33,611 bases of DNA from Clostridia bacterium (GTDB lineage: Bacteria > Bacillota > Clostridia > Lachnospirales > Lachnospiraceae), in assembly GCA_028722515.1 (NCBI GenBank), contig JAQYGS010000003.1:1-33611 (forward strand). The letters run 5' to 3'. Within the stretch, counting starts at the first letter, position 1; each line of letters starts with the position of its first letter. Made by a program: the position numbers and the translations under genes. Below are positions 5,106-33,611 of this stretch, piece after piece. The notes beneath the pieces were generated by a model, which was not told the DNA's origin, searched no databases, and saw nothing but the letters and a program-made list of their open reading frames with translations.

Positions 5106-7016
5106 ATGATCTTATCATGCCAGAACATCTGCAAATCCTTTGGGGAACATGTTATACTTGAGAATGCCTGTTTCCATATAGAAGACCGTGAGAAGGCTGC
5201 TCTGATCGGTAACAACGGAGCCGGGAAAACCACTCTGCTGAAAATTATAATGCATGAAATTCCAGCGGATTCCGGTACGGTTGTTCTTGCAAAGGATAAA
5301 AAAATCGGGTATCTTGCCCAGTATCAGGACATTCACGGCCACCACACTATTTATGAGGAGCTTCTCTCTACAAAGCAGCATGTTATTGATATGGAAAGCC
5401 GTCTCAGAAGTCTGGAATCCCAGATGAAATCTGCATCCGGGGAAACTCTGGACAGTCTGATGAATACGTATACCAGGTTAAACCACGAATTTGAAATCGA
5501 AAACGGATATGCTTATGAAAGTGAAATCATGGGAGTGGTACATGGACTTGGATTTACCCGGGAAGACATAGACAGACAGATAGAAACTCTCTCCGGCGGC
5601 CAGAAAACCAGAGTGGCACTGGGTAAACTTCTTCTTTCAAAGCCTGATATCCTTCTTCTGGATGAGCCCACCAACCACCTGGACATGGAGAGTATCTCAT
5701 GGCTTGAAACGTATCTTATGAATTACCCGGGAGCTGTATTTATTGTATCTCATGACCGGTATTTTCTGGATAAGGTAGTGACCAAGGTGGTGGAGATCGA
5801 AGCCGGACAGATGCGTATGTATTTGGGCAATTATTCCGCGTATGCTCTGAAGAAAGCCAGCCTTAGGGATGCCCAGTATAAAGCGTACCTTAACCAGCAG
5901 AGAGAGATAAAGCACCAGGAAGCAGTGATCACAAAGCTTAAATCTTTTAATCGTGAAAAATCTATAAAAAGAGCAGAAAGCCGTGAAAAAATGCTTAATA
6001 AGATCCAGAGAATCGAGAAGCCTCTGGAAATTCAGAATCAGATGCGTATTTCTCTGGAACCCCGGTATATAAGCGGAAACGATGTGCTGACTGTAGAGGG
6101 GCTTTCCAAATCTTTTCCGCAGCAGATGCTGTTTAGCGATATTTCTTTTGATATCAAGCGTGGAGAGCGTGTGGCTCTCATAGGAAACAATGGTACGGGC
6201 AAAACCACCATATTAAAGATACTAAATGGGATCATTGACGCTGATGAGGGCAAATTTTCTCTTGGATCCAAGGTGAAGATCGGATATTATGATCAGGAAC
6301 ATCACGTACTCCATATGGAAAAGACTATTTTTCAGGAAATTTCTGACACGTATCCCACTCTTACGGAAACACAGATCCGCAATATGCTTGCTGCTTTTCT
6401 GTTTACTGGAGATGATGTATTTAAAGAAATTTCTTCCCTTTCCGGTGGTGAAAGAGGCCGTGTATCCCTGGCAAAGCTTATGCTTTCGGAAGCCAATTTT
6501 CTGATCCTTGATGAGCCTACCAACCATCTTGATATCGCTTCCAAGGAAATTCTGGAGGAAGCACTGAACAGTTACACAGGAACTGTACTTTATGTATCTC
6601 ATGACCGGTATTTCATTAATCAGACTGCCACCAGAATTCTGGATCTGACCAATCATACTCTGGTAAATTATATTGGAGATTATGATTATTATCTTGAAAA
6701 AAAAGAGGAACTGACTGATAAATATGCTCCTTCCACTGAGAAAGAGGCATCATCAGAAAAAAGCTCTTCTGACAATAAGCTTTCCTGGCAGCAGAAGAAA
6801 GAAGAACAGGCCCGCCAGCGTAAACGTGAGAACGACCTGAAGAAAGTTGAAAACCGGATCGAAGAACTGGAAAACAGAGACAGGGAAATTGATGAAACTC
6901 TGGTTCTTCCTGATATCTGTACAAACGTGGCTGAATGTACCAGGCTAAGCAGAGAAAAAGAAGCGATCGGTGAAGAACTTGAGAAACTGTATGAAAAATG
7001 GGAAGAACTTGCATAA
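5106..7016 (+). CDS. ABC-F family ATPase (ribosome-associated type)
   Basis: The 636-residue protein has two fused ABC ATPase domains and no membrane segment, the ABC-F layout. Domain 1 has Walker A GNNGAGKTT, signature LSGGQKTRVALGKLLL and Walker B ILLLDEPTNHLD; domain 2 has GNNGTGKTT, LSGGERGRVSLAKLML and LILDEPTNHLD. A charged linker (about 240-310) corresponds to the P-site tRNA interaction motif, and a C-terminal coiled coil rich in Lys and Glu (about 555-636) resembles YfmR/Uup proteins. ABC-F proteins act on the translating ribosome; some relieve stalling and others protect against antibiotics. Nothing in the sequence decides between those roles. The ATG follows TTGGAGGAATTTGT. It stands alone between rex (divergent) and icd (convergent). 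Confidence 0.92.
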   Translation: MILSCQNICKSFGEHVILENACFHIEDREKAALIGNNGAGKTTLLKIIMHEIPADSGTVVLAKDKKIGYLAQYQDIHGHHTIYEELLSTKQHVIDMESRLRSLESQMKSASGETLDSLMNTYTRLNHEFEIENGYAYESEIMGVVHGLGFTREDIDRQIETLSGGQKTRVALGKLLLSKPDILLLDEPTNHLDMESISWLETYLMNYPGAVFIVSHDRYFLDKVVTKVVEIEAGQMRMYLGNYSAYALKKASLRDAQYKAYLNQQREIKHQEAVITKLKSFNREKSIKRAESREKMLNKIQRIEKPLEIQNQMRISLEPRYISGNDVLTVEGLSKSFPQQMLFSDISFDIKRGERVALIGNNGTGKTTILKILNGIIDADEGKFSLGSKVKIGYYDQEHHVLHMEKTIFQEISDTYPTLTETQIRNMLAAFLFTGDDVFKEISSLSGGERGRVSLAKLMLSEANFLILDEPTNHLDIASKEILEEALNSYTGTVLYVSHDRYFINQTATRILDLTNHTLVNYIGDYDYYLEKKEELTDKYAPSTEKEASSEKSSSDNKLSWQQKKEEQARQRKRENDLKKVENRIEELENRDREIDETLVLPDICTNVAECTRLSREKEAIGEELEKLYEKWEELA

Positions 7017-7037
7017 TCTGCAGGCTCTTCCCTTTTT
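7000..7037 (+). terminator. Intrinsic terminator overlapping the end of the ABC-F gene
   Basis: GGGAAGA (7000-7006) pairs with TCTTCCC (7026-7032) and is followed by TTTTT. The left arm is inside the last codons of the ABC-F gene. The loop is long (about 19 bases). It separates the gene from convergent icd. Confidence 0.6.
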
Positions 7038-7041
7038 ATGA

Positions 7042-8250
7042 TCACAGCATTTTTTCCAGTCTGTCTTTAATCGCCAGGATAAAATCTCTGCTGTTTAATA
7101 CAGTTACATGCTTCAGGGATGTGATCAGTGCCAGATCCTTGGTCATTTTTCCACTTTCAATGGTTCCAAGTGTGGCCTTCTCCAGCTTGTCCGCAAAATC
7201 CATAAGCTGGCTGTTTGAGTCAAGCTCTCCACGTTTCCTTAAAGCACCTGTCCATGCAAAGATGGTTGCTACGGAGTTAGTGGATGTTTCCTTTCCCTCA
7301 AGGTGACGGTAATAATGTCTCTGAACTGTACCATGGGCAGCTTCATATTCATAATTTCCATCTGGTGACACCAGAACAGAAGTCATCATTGCCAGAGAAC
7401 CAAATGCTGAGGAAACCATATCACTCATTACATCGCCATCATAGTTCTTGCAGGCCCAGATAAATCCTCCCTGAGATTTCATTACACGGGCTACAATATC
7501 ATCGATCAGGCTGTAAAAATATTCCAGACCTGCCGCTTCAAATTTTTCTTTAAATTCTTTCTCATAAATTTCAGCAAAAATTTCCTTAAATCGGCCGTCA
7601 TAAGTCTTGGAAATGGTATCTTTGGCTCCCAGCCACAGGTTCTGCCTTGTATCAAGAGCATAATTAAAGCAGCATCTTGCAAAGCTTGTAATGGATGCAT
7701 CCAGATTATGCATTCCCTGAAGCACGCCTGAGCCATCAAAGTGCTGGATCAGCTCTTTCTTCTTCTCTCCATTCTCACCTTCAAAAACAAGGTAGGCATC
7801 TCCAGGGCCGTCTATATACATTTCTGTATTTTTATATACATCGCCGTATGCGTGACGGGCAAGCGTAATGGGCATTTTCCAGTTTTTCACACACGGTTCG
7901 ATTCCCTTCACAACTATAGGAGCACGAAATACGGTGCCATCCATGATCGCACGGATCGTTCCATTGGGACTCTTATACATCTTTTTTAAGTGGTATTCTT
8001 CCATCCTGGCCTTGTTTGGAGTAATAGTTGCACATTTAACGGCTACTCCATACTTCTTTGCTGCATTAGCGGCATCTACAGTTACTTTGTCATCCGTTTC
8101 ATTTCTGTGCACCAGGCCAAGATCATAATACTCTGTTTTCAAATCAATGTACGGAAGAAGAAGTTCCTCTTTAATTATTTTCCACAGGATCCTGGTCATC
8201 TCGTCTCCGTCCATTTCCACCAATGGTGTGCTCATTTGAATTTTTTTCAT
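7042..8250 (-). CDS. icd: NADP-dependent isocitrate dehydrogenase (class II, homodimeric type)
   Basis: It oxidatively decarboxylates isocitrate to 2-oxoglutarate, probably for glutamate synthesis in this anaerobe. The start ATG at 8250 is used because AGGAGGG precedes it by 6 bases; the ORF extends 11 codons further without a ribosome binding site. The 402-residue protein resembles the eukaryotic-type IDH family rather than the E. coli type: PLVEMDGDEMTR near the N-terminus, TITPNKARMEEYHLKKMYKSP for substrate binding, ARHAYGDVYK, and the NADP-binding EAAHGTVQRHYY followed by TSTNSVATIFAWTGAL. No citrate synthase or aconitase is adjacent. It has its own promoter at 8286-8314 and faces the ABC-F gene convergently. 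Confidence 0.96.
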   Translation of the reverse strand: MKKIQMSTPLVEMDGDEMTRILWKIIKEELLLPYIDLKTEYYDLGLVHRNETDDKVTVDAANAAKKYGVAVKCATITPNKARMEEYHLKKMYKSPNGTIRAIMDGTVFRAPIVVKGIEPCVKNWKMPITLARHAYGDVYKNTEMYIDGPGDAYLVFEGENGEKKKELIQHFDGSGVLQGMHNLDASITSFARCCFNYALDTRQNLWLGAKDTISKTYDGRFKEIFAEIYEKEFKEKFEAAGLEYFYSLIDDIVARVMKSQGGFIWACKNYDGDVMSDMVSSAFGSLAMMTSVLVSPDGNYEYEAAHGTVQRHYYRHLEGKETSTNSVATIFAWTGALRKRGELDSNSQLMDFADKLEKATLGTIESGKMTKDLALITSLKHVTVLNSRDFILAIKDRLEKML

Positions 8251-23046: not shown

Positions 23047-23547
23047 TTATTTTATTTCCGCCTTAAGTTTCATCAGAGCCCTGGTATGCATACGCTTAAT
23101 ACGTCCATAGGGAATATTCATATCTGAAGCAATGCTGCAAAGGGATCTTTCTTCATAATAATGAAGAATGATCAGATCCCGTTCCTCCTGGCTTAATTTC
23201 ATAAGAGCCTGAAGCAGCATCTCCTGTACTTCTTCCGAAATTATATTTTCCAGAATATCCAGTTCATCCTGAACAGGCTCATCAATCTCTTCCAGATCTG
23301 TATGCCTATGATGTGTGCGGTAAAAATCAATTACTGCATTCCTGGCAATGGTATAGATCCAGGTAGAAACTGATGCTTTCTGTGAATTAAAGGTATCCCA
23401 TTTATTACAGATCTTAATAAACACTTGATGAGTCAGATCTTCTGCATCTTCTTTACTGAAAATTTTATTATATATATATCCGTAAATTCTGGGATAATAT
23501 TCCTGATATAATTTTTCTATTTCAGTTTTTGTGTCAGTCTGCTTCAT
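23047..23547 (-). CDS. ECF-like RNA polymerase sigma factor
   Basis: A 166-residue sigma factor with only regions 2 and 4. Region 2 covers YPRIYGYIYNKIFSKEDAED with LTHQVFIKICNKW and STWIYTIARNAVIDFYR; region 4 covers LSQEERDLIILHYYEERSLC with IASDMNIPYGRIKRMHTRAL. ATG 23547 follows CAGGAGAG; the longer frame to 23580 is excluded because it would start inside the -10 element of its own promoter (23579-23611). No conventional membrane anti-sigma gene is next to it. Its promoter motif recurs in front of the NRPS-like gene at 28662, so it probably belongs to the same regulon, either as a target of a shared activator or by autoregulation. Confidence 0.9.
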   Translation of the reverse strand: MKQTDTKTEIEKLYQEYYPRIYGYIYNKIFSKEDAEDLTHQVFIKICNKWDTFNSQKASVSTWIYTIARNAVIDFYRTHHRHTDLEEIDEPVQDELDILENIISEEVQEMLLQALMKLSQEERDLIILHYYEERSLCSIASDMNIPYGRIKRMHTRALMKLKAEIK

Positions 23548-23578
23548 ATTTTTCTCTCCTGGAATAAAATTTTGAAGC

Positions 23579-23611
23579 ATTATATCATACCCTTTGTAAC
23601 CAAACCGTAAC
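23579..23611 (-). promoter_or_regulatory. Promoter with GTTAC direct repeats in front of the sigma factor gene
   Basis: On the minus strand GTTACGGTTTGGTTAC (23596-23611) lies 11 bp before TATAAT (23579-23584). The -10 has an extended ATGA preceding it, and no TTGACA-like -35 exists. The same arrangement occurs at 28694-28726. Confidence 0.75.
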
Positions 23612-23902: not shown

Positions 23903-25231
23903 TCATAAATTATATCTTTTTTTATTAAACAGTGTGACTGTGACCGTCACAAGAATGGACAGTATTTCTGACAGTACCAGGGAAAACCATACACCATCAA
24001 GTCCCCATATCTTTGAACAGGTAAACACGCATATTACCGGACATATAAGTGTTCTGACCACAGACAGGGATGCGGATATCAGTCCATTGTTTAAAGCTGT
24101 AAACAAGGATGAGCCAAAGAAGTTCAGTCCTGTAAAAATATAAGAAAGGGCATAGATTCTGAAACCATGTATAGCCAGCTCCTTTGCAGCCTGATCATAT
24201 CCAAGAAATGTGGAAACAAAGAATCCGGAAAACGCATAGGATACCACAAGGATCAAGAGAGAATAACCACCTATGATAATCAGGCTTTTGTGGAAAAGTC
24301 CCTTTAACTCATCTGTATTCTGAGCGCCGTAGTGATATCCGATAACCGGAACAATCGCTATATTATATCCCATAAAAATGCAGGCAAAAAGCAGAGTAAT
24401 ATAGAGAATCACCCCATACGCATCCACACCTACTTCTCCCGCCATTTTCAGAAGAATAAAGTTATACAGAGAGCTTACAACAGAAGTTGTAATGTTCATA
24501 ATCATCTCTGAAGAGCCATTCCCACATACCTTAAGGATAGCCCGGGGCATCATTCTGGCACGTACCAGTTTCAGGGTTGTTTTTTTACTGCGGAGGAAAT
24601 AAAGCAAAGGCCCTACTCCTCCTACAACCTGGCCAAGTACGGAAGCAACTCCTGCTCCAACAACACCCCATTTAAACACACATACAAATAATGCATCCAA
24701 AGCAATATTAGTGATACCGGCCATCATAGTAAAGACAAATGCCATAGCCGACTGGTCAGCTGCCACAAAAAATTCCTGGAATTCATACTGCATAACAAAT
24801 ACCGGAATTCCAGCAAGCATAATCACACCATATATAACACCCAGCTCCAGCATCTCTCCGGATGCCCCCTGGCTTACCAGGAAAGGCCTGGTAAACACAG
24901 CAGCTATAATGGCAATTACGATTCCCAGAATTACCGAAAAAAGAACAAGGGAAGAGAATACCTGATTTGCTTCTTCTTTTTTATTTTCGCCCAGCATCTT
25001 ACTCACAAGTGCATTTCCACCTGAACCGATCATAAACCCAAAGGACGGAAAAATCAGAATATAGGGATTGATCATATTTACTGCAGCAAAAGCAGTAGTT
25101 CCGCAGAAATTGGAAATAAACAGTCCGTCAACCAATGCATATGTAGAACAGAGTATAATGGTAATAATAGGGATTAAGGTAAATTTAAACAGCTTTTTCA
25201 GTGTAAAATGTTCTGAGATCTGTATATTCAT
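23903..25231 (-). CDS. MATE family multidrug/metabolite efflux transporter
   Basis: A 442-residue protein with about 12 membrane helices, in two related halves typical of MATE exporters: FTLIPIITIILCSTYALVDG, FISNFCGTTAFAAVNMINPY, FMIGSGGNALVSKMLGENKK in the first half; YNIAIVPVIGYHYGAQNTDE in the second. MATE proteins export cationic drugs or natural products by Na+ or H+ antiport. ATG 25231 follows AAAGGAG. It lies 26 bp after the NRPS-like gene on the same strand, so cotranscription from the GTTAC-repeat promoter is likely and the synthetase product is a plausible substrate. The real substrate is unknown. Confidence 0.92.
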   Translation of the reverse strand: MNIQISEHFTLKKLFKFTLIPIITIILCSTYALVDGLFISNFCGTTAFAAVNMINPYILIFPSFGFMIGSGGNALVSKMLGENKKEEANQVFSSLVLFSVILGIVIAIIAAVFTRPFLVSQGASGEMLELGVIYGVIMLAGIPVFVMQYEFQEFFVAADQSAMAFVFTMMAGITNIALDALFVCVFKWGVVGAGVASVLGQVVGGVGPLLYFLRSKKTTLKLVRARMMPRAILKVCGNGSSEMIMNITTSVVSSLYNFILLKMAGEVGVDAYGVILYITLLFACIFMGYNIAIVPVIGYHYGAQNTDELKGLFHKSLIIIGGYSLLILVVSYAFSGFFVSTFLGYDQAAKELAIHGFRIYALSYIFTGLNFFGSSLFTALNNGLISASLSVVRTLICPVICVFTCSKIWGLDGVWFSLVLSEILSILVTVTVTLFNKKRYNL

Positions 25232-25257: not shown

Positions 25258-28200
25258 TTACTGTTCTTTGAGTGCAAGTATGGTTTTCATATCATCTGTT
25301 TCCAGCGCAATATTTAACATATGGTTGATATCCTCCAGCAGAGCATGCATTTTCTCTTCTGAATAAAGTTCTCCATGGTAATCCAGCACCCATCTGATAC
25401 CGGAAGGTGTTTCTTCTGCCTGAAAAACAGCAAGAGAATCTGAAGGCTGATTATCCTCCAGGAAGGTACCCTTTGCAACCGTACCTCCTATTTCAAAAGT
25501 GTCCTCATCCAGAGGCTGATAAATGTACGCTGAAGATAATATATCCATACATTTCTCAGAAAGTTGAATCAGCGGCATTGTGGGGAATATCATAAGATCC
25601 ATGATCTCTTTCTGAAATTCCTGTAAATATTTACTGAAAGAATCATAATCTCCCACATAACAGTATGCCATCAGTGTAGTAGCAATATATCCAAATGTAT
25701 CTTTCAGCTGAGAAGAATTTCTGCCATTATAGCCAAAAATATATGCAGAATTGCTATGCTGACAATATTTCGTAAAAGCCATTCCCAGAAGACCGGCCAT
25801 AAGAATATTAGGACTTACTCTGTTTTTCTTACAATACTCCTGAATTTTCTCCATAGATGCATCCAGATCACAGATACACCTCTTTGGTACAAATTCCTTT
25901 CCCTGAAGATCAAAAGGAATCATTCCGGGTCTTTCTATCCTTTCCATGTATTTCATGTACATCTGAGTACATTTTTCTCCTGCAGGTGTATTCCAGAACT
26001 CTGCCAGATCTTCTCCCAGCTCAAACATGGTATAACTTTCCGAAGTCAGTTCTTTTCCATCATATGCTTTACCAATATCCTCTGCTACAATACCTATAGA
26101 CCGGCCATCAGAATTTAAATGACTGAAATCTGTAAAAAGAAACTTCCTCTTTCCTGTTTCAATGATCTCAAAACAGAAAAGCCATTTATCCATAGGGCCA
26201 ATAGTTTTACTCAGATGCTTAGATTCCTCATCAAAGGTTTCATCATCCATATGAATGACCTTTATTTCATAGTCCCTGTAATCGTCCTGTGGAATCTGAT
26301 ATACAGCATGATCTTCTCCCATTTCCATTCTCATAGTAAGCCCTGGATGCGCTTCCATAGTCTTATAGATTGCTTCTTTCAGTCTCTCATTATCAATGGA
26401 CAGGTCCAATTGATAAAGAGTAGGCATATTTAAATTTGTTCCTTTTTGAAGCATTTCATAGAAAGTTGCAGTCTGGATCATAGTTGCAGGATATCTGTCT
26501 TTCTTTTCAAAAGTTTTCAGTTTCGGAGCATTTTTTACAAATTCTTCCAGTTTAAGAATATCTGTATGGTCATAAATATCTGCCACATTAATTCCAATAT
26601 TAAATTCATCACCGATCATAGATATAAGCAGCATAATGTCCAGGGATGAAACTCCCAGTTCCAGAAGGTTAGTGGTAATGCCTACTTTTCTGTCAGGAAG
26701 AACATTCTCAACAATTTCCACCAGTTTCTTCTGAACCTCTGTTTCAGGAGGAACAATTTCTTTTTCTTTGATCACAGGTCTGGGAAGAGCTTTCCTGTCT
26801 ACCTTCTGATTAGCAGTCATGGGCATTTCATCCATTCTCATCCAGATATCAGGCATCATGTAATGGGCCAGATGCTCATGGGCAAATTCATGCACTTCTT
26901 CTTCCGTAACAAAGGCCTCACATGCGTAATAAAGGCAAAGATATCTGTTATCGATCACTGCTGCAGTACAGATATTCATTCCCCGCATGGAAGACATAGC
27001 TGCTTCCACCTCACCAAGCTCAATTCTTAAGCCCCTGAGTTTTACCTGATTGTCCCTTCTTCCAAGATATTCTATTTCATCATTTTCATTGATACGGACA
27101 ATATCTCCGCTCTTGTAGCCTCTCATTCCGCCATACTCAATGAATACATCATTTGTCTTTTCAGGAAGGTTAATATAACCACGTCCCACGCCCCTGCCAC
27201 AGATCAGAAGTTCTCCTTTTTCTCCTTTTGGCACTTCTTTATTGTTTTCATCAATTACAAATACATAAACATTTGCATTAGGTACGCCAATGGTAACACA
27301 ATCCTCACTGTCAATCACTTTCATAGTACAGCTGATGGTGGCTTCTGTAGGACCATACCCATTCATAATCATTACATCTGGATTGTATTCCCTGATCCTG
27401 GTATACAAAGTTCCTGGGAAAGCTTCCGCGCCAAGATCAAGAACCTTCATTCTTCCAAATGCATCTTTCACTTTAGGAAGCTTCAGCAGACCGGACAGAT
27501 AGCTTGGAGTCACACACATAGCATCCACCTTATTTTTCTCCAGGAAATCGATCATCAGATTGGGATTCATGATTTCATCGTCCAGAGCATAGGCTACCGT
27601 ATTTCCGCTGATAAGAGGAATATACTCTTCCATCACAGACACGTCGAAGGTCATCTGGGCCATGGCCAGGCACACAGTTCCCCGTTCATATAATCCCATA
27701 AGCTCATAATTTTTTTCACTGGGATGAAGAAAATTGGAGAGATTTCCATGTTCGATCATTACGCCCTTGGGATTTCCTGTGGAACCGGAAGTATAAATAC
27801 AATAACAAAGATCATTTTCCTGTATATCCACATCTGGATTATCCTTATCCGGGCAGCTTAACAGATCCTCGATAAACTGTGGCCTTTTCTGCAGCTCGTC
27901 CACAAAAAGCTCAAGTCTGTCGTATACGATCTTTCTTGTGGAAATAATCTGTTTACAGGAAGCATCCTGGAAAATATATTTAATTCTTACATCTGGATAC
28001 TGGGTGTTGACAATGGTATAGGCCGCACCGGCTTTTAATACCCCAAGAGTTGCCACATAAGTACTGATGCCTCTCTCCAGCATAATGCATACCACATCCT
28101 CCGCGCCAACTCCCAGATAGATCAGGGAATGAGCAACACGGTTGGCAGCTTCATTTAATTCTCTGTAAGTGTAAGAGCCCTGAGAACTTACCACTGCAAG

Positions 28201-28662
28201 CTTGTCCGGATTTTTCTCCACCTGTTCTTCAAACATTCTGGTTACAGGAACAAAATCAAAATCCACAGTTGTGTCGTTGATTCCGGTCAGAGGTATATCC
28301 GGCTGGTATTTCTTTTCTCTTGTGTAATGAGTATGCAAAGCTTTAACTTCAGATTTTTTCTCAGCTTTCTTCTCAATGCCAAATACATCCATCATTCCGG
28401 TTATGGCAAATACTTCATATACCTCATCGGAAACATTTATGATAGAAAAATCAGTAATTTTCTTTCTGATCCTGAGCAAAATACGAAGTCCCACAGAAGA
28501 AATATAAGTCAGATCAGCAGCATCAAAAACGATTTTTTCAGGTGATGGAGTCAGGCTGCTCAGGTATTCCTCAAGTTCTTTTTCAATTTCAGGAGCATTA
28601 TCCGAAAATACCCTTTCCGGCAGAGTAACTGTTACAGTATTTTCTTTAAAAATTTTATCCAT
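25258..28662 (-). CDS. STAS-adenylation-carrier-condensation protein (single-module NRPS with N-terminal STAS domain)
   Basis: The 1134-residue protein joins four parts. Residues 1-98 are a STAS domain with the phospho-acceptor motif YISSVGLRILL (Ser55/56). Residues about 135-630 are an adenylation domain: TSGSTGNPKG 291-300, FDVSVMEEY 339-347 (Asp340 would contact an alpha-amino group), NGYGPTE 434-440, YKSGD 516-520, RGLRIELGEVE 543-553 and catalytic Lys620. Residues about 640-712 are a carrier domain, with Ser673 in LGVSSLDIM for phosphopantetheine. Residues about 722-1134 look like a condensation domain in which the first His of HHxxxDG is Ser but catalytic His848 remains (SHLNSDG). It would activate one amino acid and join it to an acyl or amino partner. 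There is no thioesterase or reductase. First gene of an operon with MATE; ATG follows AAGGGG. Confidence 0.9.
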   Translation of the reverse strand: MDKIFKENTVTVTLPERVFSDNAPEIEKELEEYLSSLTPSPEKIVFDAADLTYISSVGLRILLRIRKKITDFSIINVSDEVYEVFAITGMMDVFGIEKKAEKKSEVKALHTHYTREKKYQPDIPLTGINDTTVDFDFVPVTRMFEEQVEKNPDKLAVVSSQGSYTYRELNEAANRVAHSLIYLGVGAEDVVCIMLERGISTYVATLGVLKAGAAYTIVNTQYPDVRIKYIFQDASCKQIISTRKIVYDRLELFVDELQKRPQFIEDLLSCPDKDNPDVDIQENDLCYCIYTSGSTGNPKGVMIEHGNLSNFLHPSEKNYELMGLYERGTVCLAMAQMTFDVSVMEEYIPLISGNTVAYALDDEIMNPNLMIDFLEKNKVDAMCVTPSYLSGLLKLPKVKDAFGRMKVLDLGAEAFPGTLYTRIREYNPDVMIMNGYGPTEATISCTMKVIDSEDCVTIGVPNANVYVFVIDENNKEVPKGEKGELLICGRGVGRGYINLPEKTNDVFIEYGGMRGYKSGDIVRINENDEIEYLGRRDNQVKLRGLRIELGEVEAAMSSMRGMNICTAAVIDNRYLCLYYACEAFVTEEEVHEFAHEHLAHYMMPDIWMRMDEMPMTANQKVDRKALPRPVIKEKEIVPPETEVQKKLVEIVENVLPDRKVGITTNLLELGVSSLDIMLLISMIGDEFNIGINVADIYDHTDILKLEEFVKNAPKLKTFEKKDRYPATMIQTATFYEMLQKGTNLNMPTLYQLDLSIDNERLKEAIYKTMEAHPGLTMRMEMGEDHAVYQIPQDDYRDYEIKVIHMDDETFDEESKHLSKTIGPMDKWLFCFEIIETGKRKFLFTDFSHLNSDGRSIGIVAEDIGKAYDGKELTSESYTMFELGEDLAEFWNTPAGEKCTQMYMKYMERIERPGMIPFDLQGKEFVPKRCICDLDASMEKIQEYCKKNRVSPNILMAGLLGMAFTKYCQHSNSAYIFGYNGRNSSQLKDTFGYIATTLMAYCYVGDYDSFSKYLQEFQKEIMDLMIFPTMPLIQLSEKCMDILSSAYIYQPLDEDTFEIGGTVAKGTFLEDNQPSDSLAVFQAEETPSGIRWVLDYHGELYSEEKMHALLEDINHMLNIALETDDMKTILALKEQ

Positions 28663-28742: not shown

Positions 28743-28775
28743 TAAAAAAAACAGGACTTATGTCCTGCTTTTTTA
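28743..28775 (-). terminator. Intrinsic terminator after the STAS antagonist gene
   Basis: CAGGAC-ATAA-GTCCTG on the minus strand (28752-28767), followed by a run of eight T. It separates the STAS/HATPase transcript from the NRPS-MATE operon, which restarts at its own promoter. The A/T-run symmetry makes it potentially bidirectional. Confidence 0.9.
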
Positions 28776-28791
28776 CAAATTTCTTAATGAT

Positions 28792-29094
28792 TTATTCAAT
28801 GGTGAGGATATCGGCAAATCCTGTAACATCAAATACTTCCATAATCATTTCATTTACATGGCAGATCTTCATGGATCCCTGCTTGTTCATCTGTTTCTGA
28901 GCACCCAGAAGTACTCTTAAACCTGCTGAAGATATGTAAGCAAGATCAGAGAAATCAAGAATCAGCTCCTTTACTCCCTCTAAGCTGTTCTTAAGCTCGG
29001 TCTCAAGCTGTGGAGCTGTAGTTGTATCCAGTCTTCCTTCCAGTTTTAATGTTAACTTTTCTTCGCTCTGTTCCTTTGAAATTGTCATATCCAA
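28792..29094 (-). CDS. STAS-domain anti-sigma factor antagonist (SpoIIAA/RsbV-like)
   Basis: A 100-residue stand-alone STAS protein: KLEGRLDTTTAPQLETELKN, LILDFSDLAYISSAGLRVLL with Ser55/56 as the phospho-acceptor site, and the C-terminal helix MIMEVFDVTGFADILTIE. In partner switching the unphosphorylated form binds an RsbW-type kinase and frees the kinase's target; the phosphorylated form does not. Its acceptor site falls at the same residue number as in the STAS domain of the NRPS-like protein next door. It lies 17 bp after the HATPase-like gene and ends at a terminator. The ATG follows an AAGGGAG site. Confidence 0.94.
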   Translation of the reverse strand: MDMTISKEQSEEKLTLKLEGRLDTTTAPQLETELKNSLEGVKELILDFSDLAYISSAGLRVLLGAQKQMNKQGSMKICHVNEMIMEVFDVTGFADILTIE

Positions 29095-29111
29095 GTTCTC
29101 CCTTTCATATA

Positions 29112-29732
29112 TTAAAACTTTTTATAAACAACCATCTCGACTGTGTTTGCATGGACTCTCACACGTACATCATCTGCAAGTTTAGCAACAATGGACTTTT
29201 CCAGTTCGTCCTTTGCCTCTTCTGTTTCCTTATCGTCGGTCTTTCTGGAAAGTACAGCAACCTTATAGCTCTGCAGAGACCATTCATTCTTATTCTCTTT
29301 ACCGGCATCTTCCATATCAGACATTCCATAAGTCATCATGTTCACGCCGGATTTTTTCTGCTGTACGGAATTCTCCACGTAACCTGTCATGTACAGTTCA
29401 AGAATATTACGGATTTTACCCATAATGCCTTTCACAGTAACATGTTCTTCGCCTCTTGATGTATTAAGAAATTCCTGGTGTTTCTTTCTGTCCATCTGAG
29501 TACTCACACACAAATGAAGCTCACAGCAGCTTCCCGTATTCTCAGCCCAGAAGTCTGCCACAAACTCTCCGGCAATACTCTTTACCATACCCATCATTTC
29601 CTCTGTCAGAAGACGAAAACGAAGAGAATCTTTCTCAGACAGTTTCTGATGAACACAAAACTCCTCTACTTCCTGGAATGCCTTGTCTGCCCCATTCCAC
29701 ATATTATCAACTTTTACCACATCTGTTTTCAT
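29112..29732 (-). CDS. Degenerate HATPase-like protein between kinase and STAS genes
   Basis: The 206-residue protein is not clearly assigned. The region LRFRLLTEEMMGMVKSI (38-53) resembles the N-box helix of RsbW/GHKL ATPases, and FWAENTGSCCELHLCV the strand after it, but the metal-binding Asn is replaced (Gly48 or Met49) and the glycine-rich lid motifs are missing. The middle has charged loops; the end (VRVRVHANTVEMVVYKKF) is a beta hairpin. A protein of this kind could bind STAS partners without kinase activity, which is inference. It is first in a two-gene unit with the STAS gene, transcribed from a near-perfect promoter at 29789-29817. ATG 29732 follows AAGGAGG. Confidence 0.75.
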   Translation of the reverse strand: MKTDVVKVDNMWNGADKAFQEVEEFCVHQKLSEKDSLRFRLLTEEMMGMVKSIAGEFVADFWAENTGSCCELHLCVSTQMDRKKHQEFLNTSRGEEHVTVKGIMGKIRNILELYMTGYVENSVQQKKSGVNMMTYGMSDMEDAGKENKNEWSLQSYKVAVLSRKTDDKETEEAKDELEKSIVAKLADDVRVRVHANTVEMVVYKKF

Positions 29733-29788
29733 CGATTTCCTCCTTAAATGTATTTCAATATAATATGAACATCCACTTCCTTCTGGCT

Positions 29789-29817
29789 ATTATATTGTAT
29801 TATGACACTACTGTCAA
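29789..29817 (-). promoter_or_regulatory. Sigma-A promoter of the HATPase-like/STAS unit
   Basis: On the minus strand a perfect TTGACA (29812-29817) and a perfect TATAAT (29789-29794) with 17 bp spacing. It implies strong constitutive transcription of the antagonist pair, independent of the upstream kinase/phosphatase genes. Confidence 0.88.
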
Positions 29818-29846
29818 CTTTTTTAATGTAGAATGCATCTATATGG

Positions 29847-30257
29847 TCATCCAATATATTTGGTCATAGTCAGGATATTTTCTCCGTTCTCATATACATA
29901 ATACACCTCATCCATGGTTTTTTTCATCATATAAATGCCAAGACCACCAATCTGCCTTTCCTCAGCAGAGAGGGTAATATCCGGATCCTTTCTGTCCAGA
30001 GGGTTAAAAGGTATGCCATGATCGGCCATTCTGATTTTCATCTTTGTTTTTCCGCTGTCAAATTCAATTGAGATCTTTACCTGCCCTGGTTCATCCGGAT
30101 ATGCATAGTCTGCAACATTTACAAACATTTCTTCCATGACAACTGTGATCTGCATAATCTTCTTCATGGAACAGTCTGCTTTTTCCATTTCTGTGCTCAC
30201 AAAATCCAAAACATCATCTAAATTATTCTTATCAGCAGGAAATACTTTTTCAGTCAT
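29847..30257 (-). CDS. RsbW/SpoIIAB-like serine kinase / anti-sigma factor (HATPase)
   Basis: 136 residues with all main GHKL ATPase motifs: N-box VVMEEMFVNVADYAY (Asn47 for Mg2+), G1 box MADHGIPFNP (Asp79) and G2 box IGGLGIYMMKKTMD. RsbW-type proteins phosphorylate a STAS antagonist and sequester a target, classically a sigma factor. The local candidates for phosphorylation are the stand-alone STAS protein and the STAS domain of the NRPS-like protein. It starts 12 bp after the SpoIIE-type phosphatase stop, so they are cotranscribed. No group 3 (sigma-B type) sigma factor is encoded in the window. Confidence 0.92.
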   Translation of the reverse strand: MTEKVFPADKNNLDDVLDFVSTEMEKADCSMKKIMQITVVMEEMFVNVADYAYPDEPGQVKISIEFDSGKTKMKIRMADHGIPFNPLDRKDPDITLSAEERQIGGLGIYMMKKTMDEVYYVYENGENILTMTKYIG

Positions 30258-30269
30258 GCTGTACGCCTT

Positions 30270-32027
30270 TCATTTTTTTAAATCCATGATCAACATAGTG
30301 ATATCATCAAACTGGGGTGCGCCATCTGCAAATTTATCAATATCCCCTCTCAGACTGTGGAGCATATCCTCAACCGATTTTTCCATATTATGGTTCATGA
30401 AATCTTTCAGACGGTCTTCCCCATAGAGTTCTTCTTTGGAATTACAGCTTTCTGTTACGCCGTCCGTATAAAGAAACAATCTGTCGCCAGGCCCAAGAGT
30501 AATTTCATTTCTCCGGTATCTGATATCTTCCATACCGGCAAGCACAAATCCCGGACGACTGACAAGATATTCAAAGTCTCCCCCATTAGTTCTTAGAAGA
30601 GGCGGATTGTGTCCTGCATTGGCAAAGCAAAGCTTTCCGTCTGAAAGATTCAAAATACCCATCCATGCTGTTACAAAAAGTCCCGCATCATTTCCCTCAC
30701 AGAGTAAATTATTTACTTTGGTAAATACCTGTTCCGGTTCCAGACCCATCTGGGCATAGTTTTTGATCAGTGTCTTGGCTATGACCATAAACAGCGCAGC
30801 TGGAACACCTTTACCGGATACATCGGCAATGACCAGTGCCAGATGTGTATCATCTGTCATAAAGAAGTCATAGAAATCTCCTCCAACTTCCTTGGCTGGT
30901 GTCATTGTGGCATAAAGATCAAACTCATTATGATCCGGGAATGGCGGAAAGATAATGGGAAGCATATGGGCCTGAATACTGGATGCCAGACTTAACTCCG
31001 CATTGATCCTTTCCTTTTCGGCAGTGATCTTCTTAAGATTGTCCACATAGTTTTCCAGATTCTGTGCCATTGAAATGTAAGATCTTGCAAGACTTCCTGC
31101 TTCTGTATTGTCATTTTTATATTTCTCACATCTTGAGATCATGTTTTTTCTCTGTTCATCTGTAGAGCTCTCATGATAATAGCTCTCGGCTATATCAGCA
31201 AGATCTTCTACCGGATCAGCAATCTTCTTTTCGGTAAACCACATAAACCCAATGGAAAGCAGAAAATAGCAATTAAGCGCAATAGTCTGAAACAGATACA
31301 TCTGTCCCCAGATTCCGACAGGCATACCTTTTACACCGATTTTATTTGAAAGATAAACAGACATACCCACCAGAATACAGATTCCAAGGCCTATAGCAAT
31401 TGTATTCAGGATCATTCTCTCATTTAAAGAAAATACAAATATTTTTTCCTTTTCCCCGTTTGTAATATTGGTCAGTTTCTTCTGGATAAGATGACAAAGG
31501 ATTACCAGAGGACAGCCAAAAAGAAGACCTGAATCAAATACATTAAAAAAGAGATACAGACTGTTCAGTGAAATAAAGTCAGACACAGAATATGCATGGT
31601 TAATAATTCCTGTAAACAAGACAGCCAGAATGGCATCAATGAACATAACAAGGCAGAATTTCAGCATTCTTTCAATACTGTCAAGCCTGAATTCCTGTCC
31701 ATTACGTTCCTTATTTAATTTCTTCCACAGAAAATAAGGAATCATTCCATATACGATCTGCTGAATAAAGCTAAAGCATGCATAGGTCAGTCCATAACCG
31801 GAGATCATATCTGCCAGGAACGCACCTGCCCCGCAGCCTAGGGCTGCAGGGATACCAAAGATCATTCCCAGAACAGGCGTAAGTGCAGAGCTGGGGCGCA
31901 TATCCGTAATTTCTGCTGCCGAAAGCCAGACTCTGAAAGGCATAGTCAGAATCATAAACAAAGCCAGGCTGGCAACAAAAATAACCGGCAACAACCATTG
32001 TCTTTTTGTTTCTTTTCTCAAAATCAT
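30270..32027 (-). CDS. Membrane SpoIIE/RsbU-family protein phosphatase (PP2C)
   Basis: 585 residues. The N-terminal half (1-265) has about seven membrane helices; SSALTPVLGMIFGIPAALGC with GAGAFLADMISG looks like an S-component-type (ECF transporter) small-molecule binding fold. Next is a juxtamembrane segment and a coiled-coil signalling helix (about 320-355) ending in the SIQAHMLP motif typical of RsbU-like enzymes, then a PP2C domain with metal-binding motifs KEVGGDFYDFF (380-387), ADVSGKG (402-407), FANAGHNPPLL, YTDGVTE (521-526) and FDDITM (573-578). It is expected to dephosphorylate phospho-STAS partners in response to a membrane signal. ATG follows AAAGGAG. It is in one transcript with the RsbW-like gene and probably with the upstream SH3 protein gene. 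Confidence 0.93.
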   Translation of the reverse strand: MILRKETKRQWLLPVIFVASLALFMILTMPFRVWLSAAEITDMRPSSALTPVLGMIFGIPAALGCGAGAFLADMISGYGLTYACFSFIQQIVYGMIPYFLWKKLNKERNGQEFRLDSIERMLKFCLVMFIDAILAVLFTGIINHAYSVSDFISLNSLYLFFNVFDSGLLFGCPLVILCHLIQKKLTNITNGEKEKIFVFSLNERMILNTIAIGLGICILVGMSVYLSNKIGVKGMPVGIWGQMYLFQTIALNCYFLLSIGFMWFTEKKIADPVEDLADIAESYYHESSTDEQRKNMISRCEKYKNDNTEAGSLARSYISMAQNLENYVDNLKKITAEKERINAELSLASSIQAHMLPIIFPPFPDHNEFDLYATMTPAKEVGGDFYDFFMTDDTHLALVIADVSGKGVPAALFMVIAKTLIKNYAQMGLEPEQVFTKVNNLLCEGNDAGLFVTAWMGILNLSDGKLCFANAGHNPPLLRTNGGDFEYLVSRPGFVLAGMEDIRYRRNEITLGPGDRLFLYTDGVTESCNSKEELYGEDRLKDFMNHNMEKSVEDMLHSLRGDIDKFADGAPQFDDITMLIMDLKK

Positions 32028-32054: not shown

Positions 32055-33131
32055 TCAATACCATTCCTTACCATTTTCGTCAACCCAGGCACCGTCTTCC
32101 CTGTGGAAATAGGACATTTGATTTTTATCATAGTAAAGACCGTCTTCTCCTCTGGTGAGAGTATTAGATTCGCCTGTGCTCTCATCTGTTACGACTATAG
32201 TGGTATCATTTGGATCATAAGTAGTAAATTTCTCACCATCGCTTAATCTTTTCCACATATCTCCACTGCCGCCACTGATCTCATAAGCTTCCCCGTCTCC
32301 GTCATAATAATATCCATCTGTGTAAGGATATATACCAAAAGTAGAACCATCTGCTCTGTACAGAATCAGTTCTTCACCTTCATCTCTTGAGAGAGGCTCA
32401 CCGCCCGGCACCTTATTTCCGTCAGTTTCAGAACCTTCTGTGGTCTGTTTTTTTGGTTCTTCCTTCTGTGCAGAAGGCTGTTGATCAGAAACAAATTCTC
32501 CGTAAATGTAGCCCACAGAGCCATTCAACGCCACACGATACCACTCTGTACCTGCTCCGTCAATCACAACCTGGCCTGTCACCTGAACTGCATCTCCATA
32601 ATCCAGTTCGCCAATGATGTAATCCTCAGTAGTATGTCCGGCACGTACATTAAGTGTGTCCACGGCCACGTACACGGTTTTATTCATTTCTTCGATCTTA
32701 AAACTGCTCTTGTCAATGTTTTTGGAAGATTTTACTGCTTTTTTTGTATTGTATTGTTTAATTTCAATACTGTCAACTGCTTTTTTCACTGCATCAAAAT
32801 GATCCTCTTTCTCTGAAAGTCCAAGAAAGACAAATACTTCATTTTTATTGGAAATAACCTTTTCATAAACCCATTCATAGGTTTCATCTGCTTCAGCTAC
32901 AGCAGGAAGCTCTTCGCCGTTACTGTAATGCAGCATAGCCACTGCATCATATCCGTTGGAGAAAATTGCCCATCTCTGTGGATCTGATACTTCCTTCCAT
33001 GTTTCATCCGGAAGCTCGATCTGAGCTACACCGTCTGATGTTTCAGCTGTTTTTGCATAAACTGTTGTCCCTCCTGCCATTAATACTGCTGTTGCAGCAA
33101 AGGCAGCTGCAAACATTAAATTTTTTTTCAT
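32055..33131 (-). CDS. Secreted SH3-domain protein upstream of the phosphatase
   Basis: 358 residues with a signal peptide (LMFAAAFAATAVLMAGGTTV, cleavage near VYA-KTA). An N-terminal domain (about 28-125: IELPDETWKEVSDPQRWAIF, DAVAMLHYSNGEEL, EVFVFLGLSEKEDHFDAVKK) resembles export-associated alpha/beta modules of unknown role. A bacterial SH3 domain follows (about 150-215: LNVRAGHTTEDYIIGELDYG with VGYIYGEFV), which usually binds peptidoglycan peptides. The C-terminal half has repeated acidic, Tyr/Gly-rich strands (ILYRADGSTFGIYPYTDGYY, LYYDKNQMSYFHREDGAWVD). It is 27 bp upstream of the SpoIIE-type gene, so it may be the extracytoplasmic part of the same signalling unit; that is inference. 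ATG follows AAGGAGG. Confidence 0.88.
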   Translation of the reverse strand: MKKNLMFAAAFAATAVLMAGGTTVYAKTAETSDGVAQIELPDETWKEVSDPQRWAIFSNGYDAVAMLHYSNGEELPAVAEADETYEWVYEKVISNKNEVFVFLGLSEKEDHFDAVKKAVDSIEIKQYNTKKAVKSSKNIDKSSFKIEEMNKTVYVAVDTLNVRAGHTTEDYIIGELDYGDAVQVTGQVVIDGAGTEWYRVALNGSVGYIYGEFVSDQQPSAQKEEPKKQTTEGSETDGNKVPGGEPLSRDEGEELILYRADGSTFGIYPYTDGYYYDGDGEAYEISGGSGDMWKRLSDGEKFTTYDPNDTTIVVTDESTGESNTLTRGEDGLYYDKNQMSYFHREDGAWVDENGKEWY

Positions 33132-33322: not shown

Positions 33323-33611
33323 TTATTTTTTCCTTACTTTTTTTAGATATTTTCCCTTTTTATCAAAGTAGTAGTATGTTTTATTTTTTTTATTATAAGC
33401 TTTCCCAGTAACCAGCTGCCCTTTCTTTACAGCATTACTTTTTATGGAAGTATCTCCGGTCCAGAAATAAAACTTGTTTCCTTTTGTACTGGTGACCCAT
33501 CCAGTACACATCTGGCCCTTCTGTCTGGCGGACGTTTTCACGGCAGAATTTTCTTCTTTAAAATAGAATCTGGAACCGTCCTTCATGGTAACCCATCCGG
33601 TACACATCTGG
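33323..33611 (-). CDS. Cell-wall/choline-binding repeat protein, C-terminal part (N-terminus beyond right edge)
   Basis: The frame is open to the window edge; an internal ATG at 33607 is not the start. The visible 95 residues are about three and a half glucan/choline-binding-type repeats, each with a GW pair and aromatic strands (TGWVTMKDGSRFYF, TGWVTSTKGNKFYF, TGKAYNKKNKTYYYF), ending in a Lys-rich tail. Such repeats anchor secreted enzymes or adhesins to teichoic acid or wall glycans. The catalytic or functional part lies outside the window. Confidence 0.8.
   Translation of the reverse strand, partial: QMCTGWVTMKDGSRFYFKEENSAVKTSARQKGQMCTGWVTSTKGNKFYFWTGDTSIKSNAVKKGQLVTGKAYNKKNKTYYYFDKKGKYLKKVRKK

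Follow-up and report, generated by a model that had tools for sequence, protein, structure and literature searches.

Introduction

In the Bacillus subtilis systems RsbU/RsbP-RsbV-RsbW-SigB and SpoIIE-SpoIIAA-SpoIIAB-SigF, the activity of a sigma factor is set by a partner switch that consists of a PP2C phosphatase, a HATPase_c_2 serine kinase and a STAS protein with an acceptor serine. A module with the same three parts is encoded at positions 28792-32027 of a 33,611-nucleotide stretch of DNA (the window) from a Clostridia bacterium of the Lachnospiraceae (contig JAQYGS010000003.1 of assembly GCA_028722515.1). Unlike the B. subtilis systems, however, this module has no sigma-B/F/G target that we could find, and it has a second STAS domain, carried by a nonribosomal peptide synthetase (NRPS), and an additional protein with a predicted RsbW fold, p206.

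Partner-switching proteins with outputs other than a sigma factor have been reported. In Pseudomonas aeruginosa, the phosphatase-kinase-antagonist switch SiaABCD has a diguanylate cyclase, not a sigma factor, as its output (PMC8457831, PMC7647112). In MlaFEDB, the STAS protein MlaB directly regulates a transport machine (PMC7367683). The two systems are precedents for partner-switching proteins that act on an enzyme or a transporter. SiaABCD resembles the proposed module in having an enzyme output, and the p206 model matches SiaB (see below), but SiaC is not fused to its enzyme, which is no NRPS, whereas the second STAS domain in the window is fused to the enzyme. MlaFEDB is an ABC transporter for which we found no report of a kinase-phosphatase pair (PMC7367683). 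The partner switches SypA/SypE, BtrUVW, RbaVW and HmpUVW also have targets that are not known or are not sigma factors (reviewed in PMC8256260), but unlike in the present loci, none of them has been described as part of an NRPS or in fusion with a MATE exporter. In the open-access literature we found no description of an NRPS-borne partner switch, and no paper that joins partner switching, a STAS domain and a nonribosomal peptide synthetase.

Results

The window spans contig C3 in full; the metagenome-assembled genome to which it belongs has 2.42 Mb in 256 contigs, with 83.6% completeness and 5% contamination. An initial annotation, made from the sequence alone, had described an intact SpoIIE-type phosphatase, RsbW-like kinase and STAS antagonist. 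These three parts are confirmed at the positions given. Kinase, phosphatase and the two STAS domains clear the Pfam cut-offs by a wide margin and keep their motifs, but the annotation had overlooked a fourth gene, p206 (29112-29732), between the kinase and the STAS gene. The membrane-anchored phosphatase (585 residues, 30270-32027; Pfam SpoIIE, E=3.8e-51) has the motifs GGDFYDF, DVSGKG, TDGVTE and FDDITM, with the metal-binding aspartates of PP2C/SpoIIE enzymes. Its N-terminal membrane region matches ECF-ribofla_trS over the Pfam cut-off (5.7e-9) and thus resembles the S component of an energy-coupling factor transporter; it may have evolved from a protein for vitamin uptake into a sensor of a ligand. 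The serine kinase (136 residues, 29847-30257; HATPase_c_2, E=2.4e-26), whose nearest relatives of solved structure are RsbW and SpoIIAB, has in the box alignment a complete set of N-box (EEMFVN), G1 (DHGIPF) and G2 (GGLGIYMM).

The free STAS protein (Pfam STAS, E=9.3e-18) carries the acceptor serine in the motif YISSAGL. Its gene starts at ATG 29088 (28792-29088) or at TTG 29094 (28792-29094). The ATG is spaced better from the ribosome site and agrees with the start of most homologues, and it makes Ser54 the acceptor. The second STAS domain (28348-28662; Pfam STAS, E=6.1e-10) forms the N-terminus of a single-module STAS-adenylation-peptidyl carrier protein (PCP)-condensation NRPS of 1134 residues (25258-28662), in which the acceptor serine is conserved as Ser56. 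The two acceptors had been thought to have the same residue number, but both are residue 56 only with the unlikely TTG start; the two positions are equivalent, and the shared number is a coincidence of start codon. The adenylation, carrier and condensation domains of the NRPS are all over the Pfam cut-offs, and LgrA and GrsA are its nearest relatives of solved structure. A recent copying of the free STAS gene into the NRPS was considered but is unsupported: in the poorly resolved STAS tree the fused STAS domain is a long, unplaced branch, and it is not visibly within the one supported group formed by the STAS-adenylation fusions of three related loci (L062, L133 and L134).

As noted in the initial annotation, a single sigma gene was found in the window, for a two-domain extracytoplasmic function (ECF)-like protein (23047-23580), 322 bp from a MATE exporter gene; we do not count it as a part of the module. 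In the same genome, SigF on contig C1 is the only gene over the sigma-B/F/G family cut-off, and it directly adjoins its own SpoIIAA and SpoIIAB. No cognate sigma-B/F/G gene for the module was found at the locus, and none besides SigF in the 83.6%-complete genome. The initial annotation had favoured a non-sigma output unless a sigma-B/F gene co-occurs with the module. Such a gene was sought and not found, and because the genome itself is only 84% complete, its absence rests mainly on relatives. We applied the same cut-off to 38 genomes (37 with related NRPS loci, plus G041). None of them had more than the two sigma-B/F/G genes that a spore former should have, and 12 had no gene over the cut-off. 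Partner-switch parts were present in 8 of these 12 (G252, G298, G168, G238, G135, G052, G041 and G233), and G252 (100% complete) and G041 (92% complete) had a motif-complete kinase along with phosphatase and STAS. A SigF query over 38 NRPS neighbourhoods likewise found no sigma-B/F-type gene; the one sigma gene seen there is ECF-like and lies at the margin of L109. A non-sigma output is favoured most strongly by the partner-switch modules in genomes without a sigma-B/F/G gene over the cut-off, and further by SigF having a SpoIIAA/SpoIIAB pair of its own. Because the defining sigma target was sought and not found, we do not file the module as a SigB or SigF system.

The 38 NRPS neighbourhoods, chosen by similarity to the NRPS of the window, were compared with 40 control stretches, of which 20 came from contigs that also carry NRPS genes and 20 from the surroundings of acyl-CoA ligase genes. 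STAS, HATPase_c_2 or SpoIIE genes were found in 16 of the 38 NRPS loci versus 1 of the 40 controls (Fisher p=1.5e-5; as the gene clusters sampled are partly related, p-values are guides only). At least two kinds of partner-switch gene were present in 10 NRPS loci, all three kinds in 6 (L096, L098, L102, L107, L121 and L125), and fusions of a MATE exporter to a HATPase domain in 9, versus none of the controls in each case. The lone match among the controls, a HATPase gene next to a gene that resembles SigF, is a SpoIIAB.

In related loci, the domains of the switch are also joined physically to effectors. STAS-adenylation fusions occur in L020, L062, L133 and L134, a STAS-condensation fusion in L126, and in L194 an adenylation enzyme (5974-7980) has a C-terminal HATPase-like domain with a match below the HATPase cut-off. 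The L194 gene sits between a MATE-HATPase fusion and an adenylation-PCP-condensation NRPS. MATE-HATPase fusions are present in at least 13 loci, and 295 genomes of the order gave about 40 full-length matches; their use as an NRPS-specific marker was rejected, with an NRPS nearby in just 2 of 20 independently chosen fusions. In the MATE-fused HATPase domains the G-box residues are often lost, as they are in p206. These effector fusions look independent of each other. What recurs is a single kinase with complete motifs, together with STAS and with RsbW-fold domains that have degenerate sites and are carried by effectors. L062 brings p206, a kinase, a phosphatase and two STAS genes together with a STAS-adenylation fusion and a membrane acyltransferase.

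Some of the fusions have notable neighbours or motifs. STAS-AMP-ligase fusions adjoin a membrane acyltransferase, beside p206 and STAS genes, in L062 (10484-13609; HGSNAT_cat match) and L020 (6696-9797). The STAS-AMP-ligase of L134 (2312-4219) has lost the acceptor serine (YISLAGI), and that locus also has a MATE-HATPase fusion. In the genome of the window itself, two MATE exporters end in a domain like HATPase_c_2; they are encoded on contigs C144 (L088, 1882-3684) and C201 (L195, from 3461), and the C144 gene adjoins adenylation and condensation genes.

The fourth gene of the locus encodes a protein of 206 residues for which we found no significant match in Pfam, NCBIfam or PDB sequences, and none of 29 members of the p206 family had a HATPase match in Pfam. 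An AlphaFold2 model built on five relatives (predicted local distance difference test score 75, predicted template modelling score 0.75) was compared with solved structures. In VIA-align the best ten matches were all RsbW, SpoIIAB, UsfX or SiaB (Z 8.8-10.5), with Z-scores of 10.5 for RsbW, 9.7 for SpoIIAB and 9.0 for SiaB, followed by a histidine kinase at 4.7; the root-mean-square deviation from 6m36 chain C was 2.4 over 104 residues. Foldseek returned the same families with probabilities up to 0.99, with E-values that were not significant. The profile-profile comparison was weak (probability 9% for the kinase and 33% for the MATE-HATPase fusions), with the alignments in register at the N-box, so the assignment is carried by the fold comparison. 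A locally built p206 profile also matched the HATPase end of the MATE-HATPase fusion of L134 (residues 459-509, E=4e-6). Thus p206 is predicted to have the RsbW/SpoIIAB fold and represents an undescribed protein family. None of the 29 members has the N-box asparagine, and in an alignment by eye a conserved DELEKSIVA stands in place of the G2 box GGLG. Because the motifs of the ATP site appear to be lost, p206 is probably a pseudokinase.

The p206 gene is present in 24 of 299 genomes of the family and in 30 of 391 genomes of the class. Among 39 p206 loci, which include five short stretches, 17 have a STAS gene on the same strand within 83 bp, mostly without an NRPS. Four loci (L075, L077, L078 and L080) encode p206 joined to MscS-type channels, and two (L074 and L079) encode it joined to an alpha/beta hydrolase. 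Tandem pairs of p206 are found in L070 and L071.

The genes of the locus are on the minus strand, in the 5' to 3' order SH3 protein (32055-33131), phosphatase, kinase, p206, STAS, STAS-bearing NRPS, MATE exporter (23903-25231; Pfam MatE, E=3.4e-32; no HATPase domain) and ECF-like sigma factor. Pattern matching located a sigma-A consensus promoter in front of p206 (29789-29817; TTGACA-17-TATAAT, 12 of 12 consensus matches) and a strong terminator-like hairpin of 13 pairs followed by a T run between STAS and the NRPS (28745-28774), both on the same strand. The genes are probably transcribed in at least three units: phosphatase-kinase, p206-STAS behind the promoter, and NRPS-MATE after the hairpin. 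Choline-binding-like repeats (GW...FYF) at 33323-33610 are the tail of a protein interrupted by the contig end.

Discussion

We propose that the module is a partner switch with a non-sigma output that acts directly on a biosynthesis or export machine, and we put the probability of this reading at about 0.5. As comparable modules are present in genomes without a matching sigma factor, the module probably controls an enzyme or exporter directly. The kinase would put phosphate on the serines of the STAS domains, and the phosphatase would strip it once its membrane sensor region is engaged by a ligand. When unphosphorylated, STAS would dock on an RsbW-fold partner, and the party freed or recruited would be the synthetase via its own STAS domain, and possibly p206 or the exporter, but not RNA polymerase. 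We infer all these binding and phosphorylation steps from sequence. A switch between two competing STAS partners, also raised in the initial annotation, is possible, but that version omits p206; as p206 is predicted to be a second RsbW-fold protein, the players would be two proteins of that fold and two STAS domains, the free one and that of the NRPS. In our proposal the kinase and p206 would each be contested by the free STAS and the NRPS-STAS, and the signal would thereby set the state of the NRPS as free, sequestered or recruited. The presence of the same domains on a MATE exporter, a stand-alone adenylation enzyme or a condensation domain in related loci suggests control of the assembly or activity of the synthetase and exporter.

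Several observations weigh against the proposed direct control of the synthetase. None of the partner-switch genes is present in 22 of the 38 related NRPS loci, and the sampled clusters are partly related. p206 is frequently paired with STAS where an NRPS is absent, and the putative promoter and terminator would set p206-STAS apart from the NRPS. The scarcity of NRPS genes near independently chosen MATE-HATPase fusions (2 of 20) shows that the theme is wider than NRPS.

The pairing of p206 with STAS also favours an alternative, which we consider unlikely, in which p206 is the real effector and acts on another target in the cell, the free STAS is its switch, set by the kinase and the phosphatase, and the NRPS-STAS is a side target or scaffold. 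The fusions of p206 to channels and a hydrolase are as expected of an effector-control domain, and p206-STAS has a consensus promoter and a terminator of its own. This alternative, however, accounts neither for the STAS-NRPS fusion nor for the excess of partner-switch genes around NRPSs where p206 is absent.

It is improbable that the kinase simply serves as an anti-sigma factor of the usual sort, for SigF or SigG or for a sigma-B missing from the incomplete assembly, with the NRPS merely nearby or a downstream regulated gene. The genome is 84% complete, the kinase, phosphatase and STAS are textbook-like, and RsbW and SpoIIAB are the closest solved structures to the kinase. On the other hand, SigF already has SpoIIAA and SpoIIAB, none of the 38 genomes exceeds the two sigma-B/F/G genes expected of a spore former, and the proposal is weakened by the motif-complete modules of G252 and G041, where no sigma-B/F/G gene is over the cut-off.

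Less probable still is that an orphan partner switch and the NRPS are chance neighbours with no functional link and that the NRPS-STAS is an inert fusion. The many related NRPS loci without any such gene (22 of 38) and the restriction of p206 to 24 of 299 family genomes would fit it, but the enrichment over controls, the recurrence of physical fusions and the conserved acceptor serine of the NRPS-STAS would not. Control of the nearby ECF-like sigma factor by the kinase is the least probable of all, because even though that gene lies on the strand of the module and a gene of the same kind is 62 bp from p206 in L062, the 322 bp gap and other genes intervene, an ECF gene is found among the 38 NRPS loci only in L109, which itself has no partner-switch parts, and to our knowledge RsbW-type kinases do not hold ECF sigma factors.

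If the module does act directly on the synthetase or exporter, a phosphorylation switch borne by the synthetase would let a signal control the natural-product enzyme of a gut bacterium directly, while regulation of NRPS is usually viewed as transcriptional. The switch beside an NRPS recurs in many related gut bacteria, and the fused STAS domain would provide an experimental handle on the control of the synthetase. More tentatively, partner switching in the Lachnospiraceae and the wider Clostridia may have been decoupled from sigma factors, with STAS, RsbW-type and pseudo-RsbW (p206) domains shuffled onto NRPSs, AMP ligases, MATE exporters, MscS channels and hydrolases as a general post-translational control of small-molecule synthesis and membrane transport. 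The finding would bear on the function of orphan RsbW/STAS systems that lack a sigma factor, a question for which the p206 family, with its channel and hydrolase fusions, would be a second test case.

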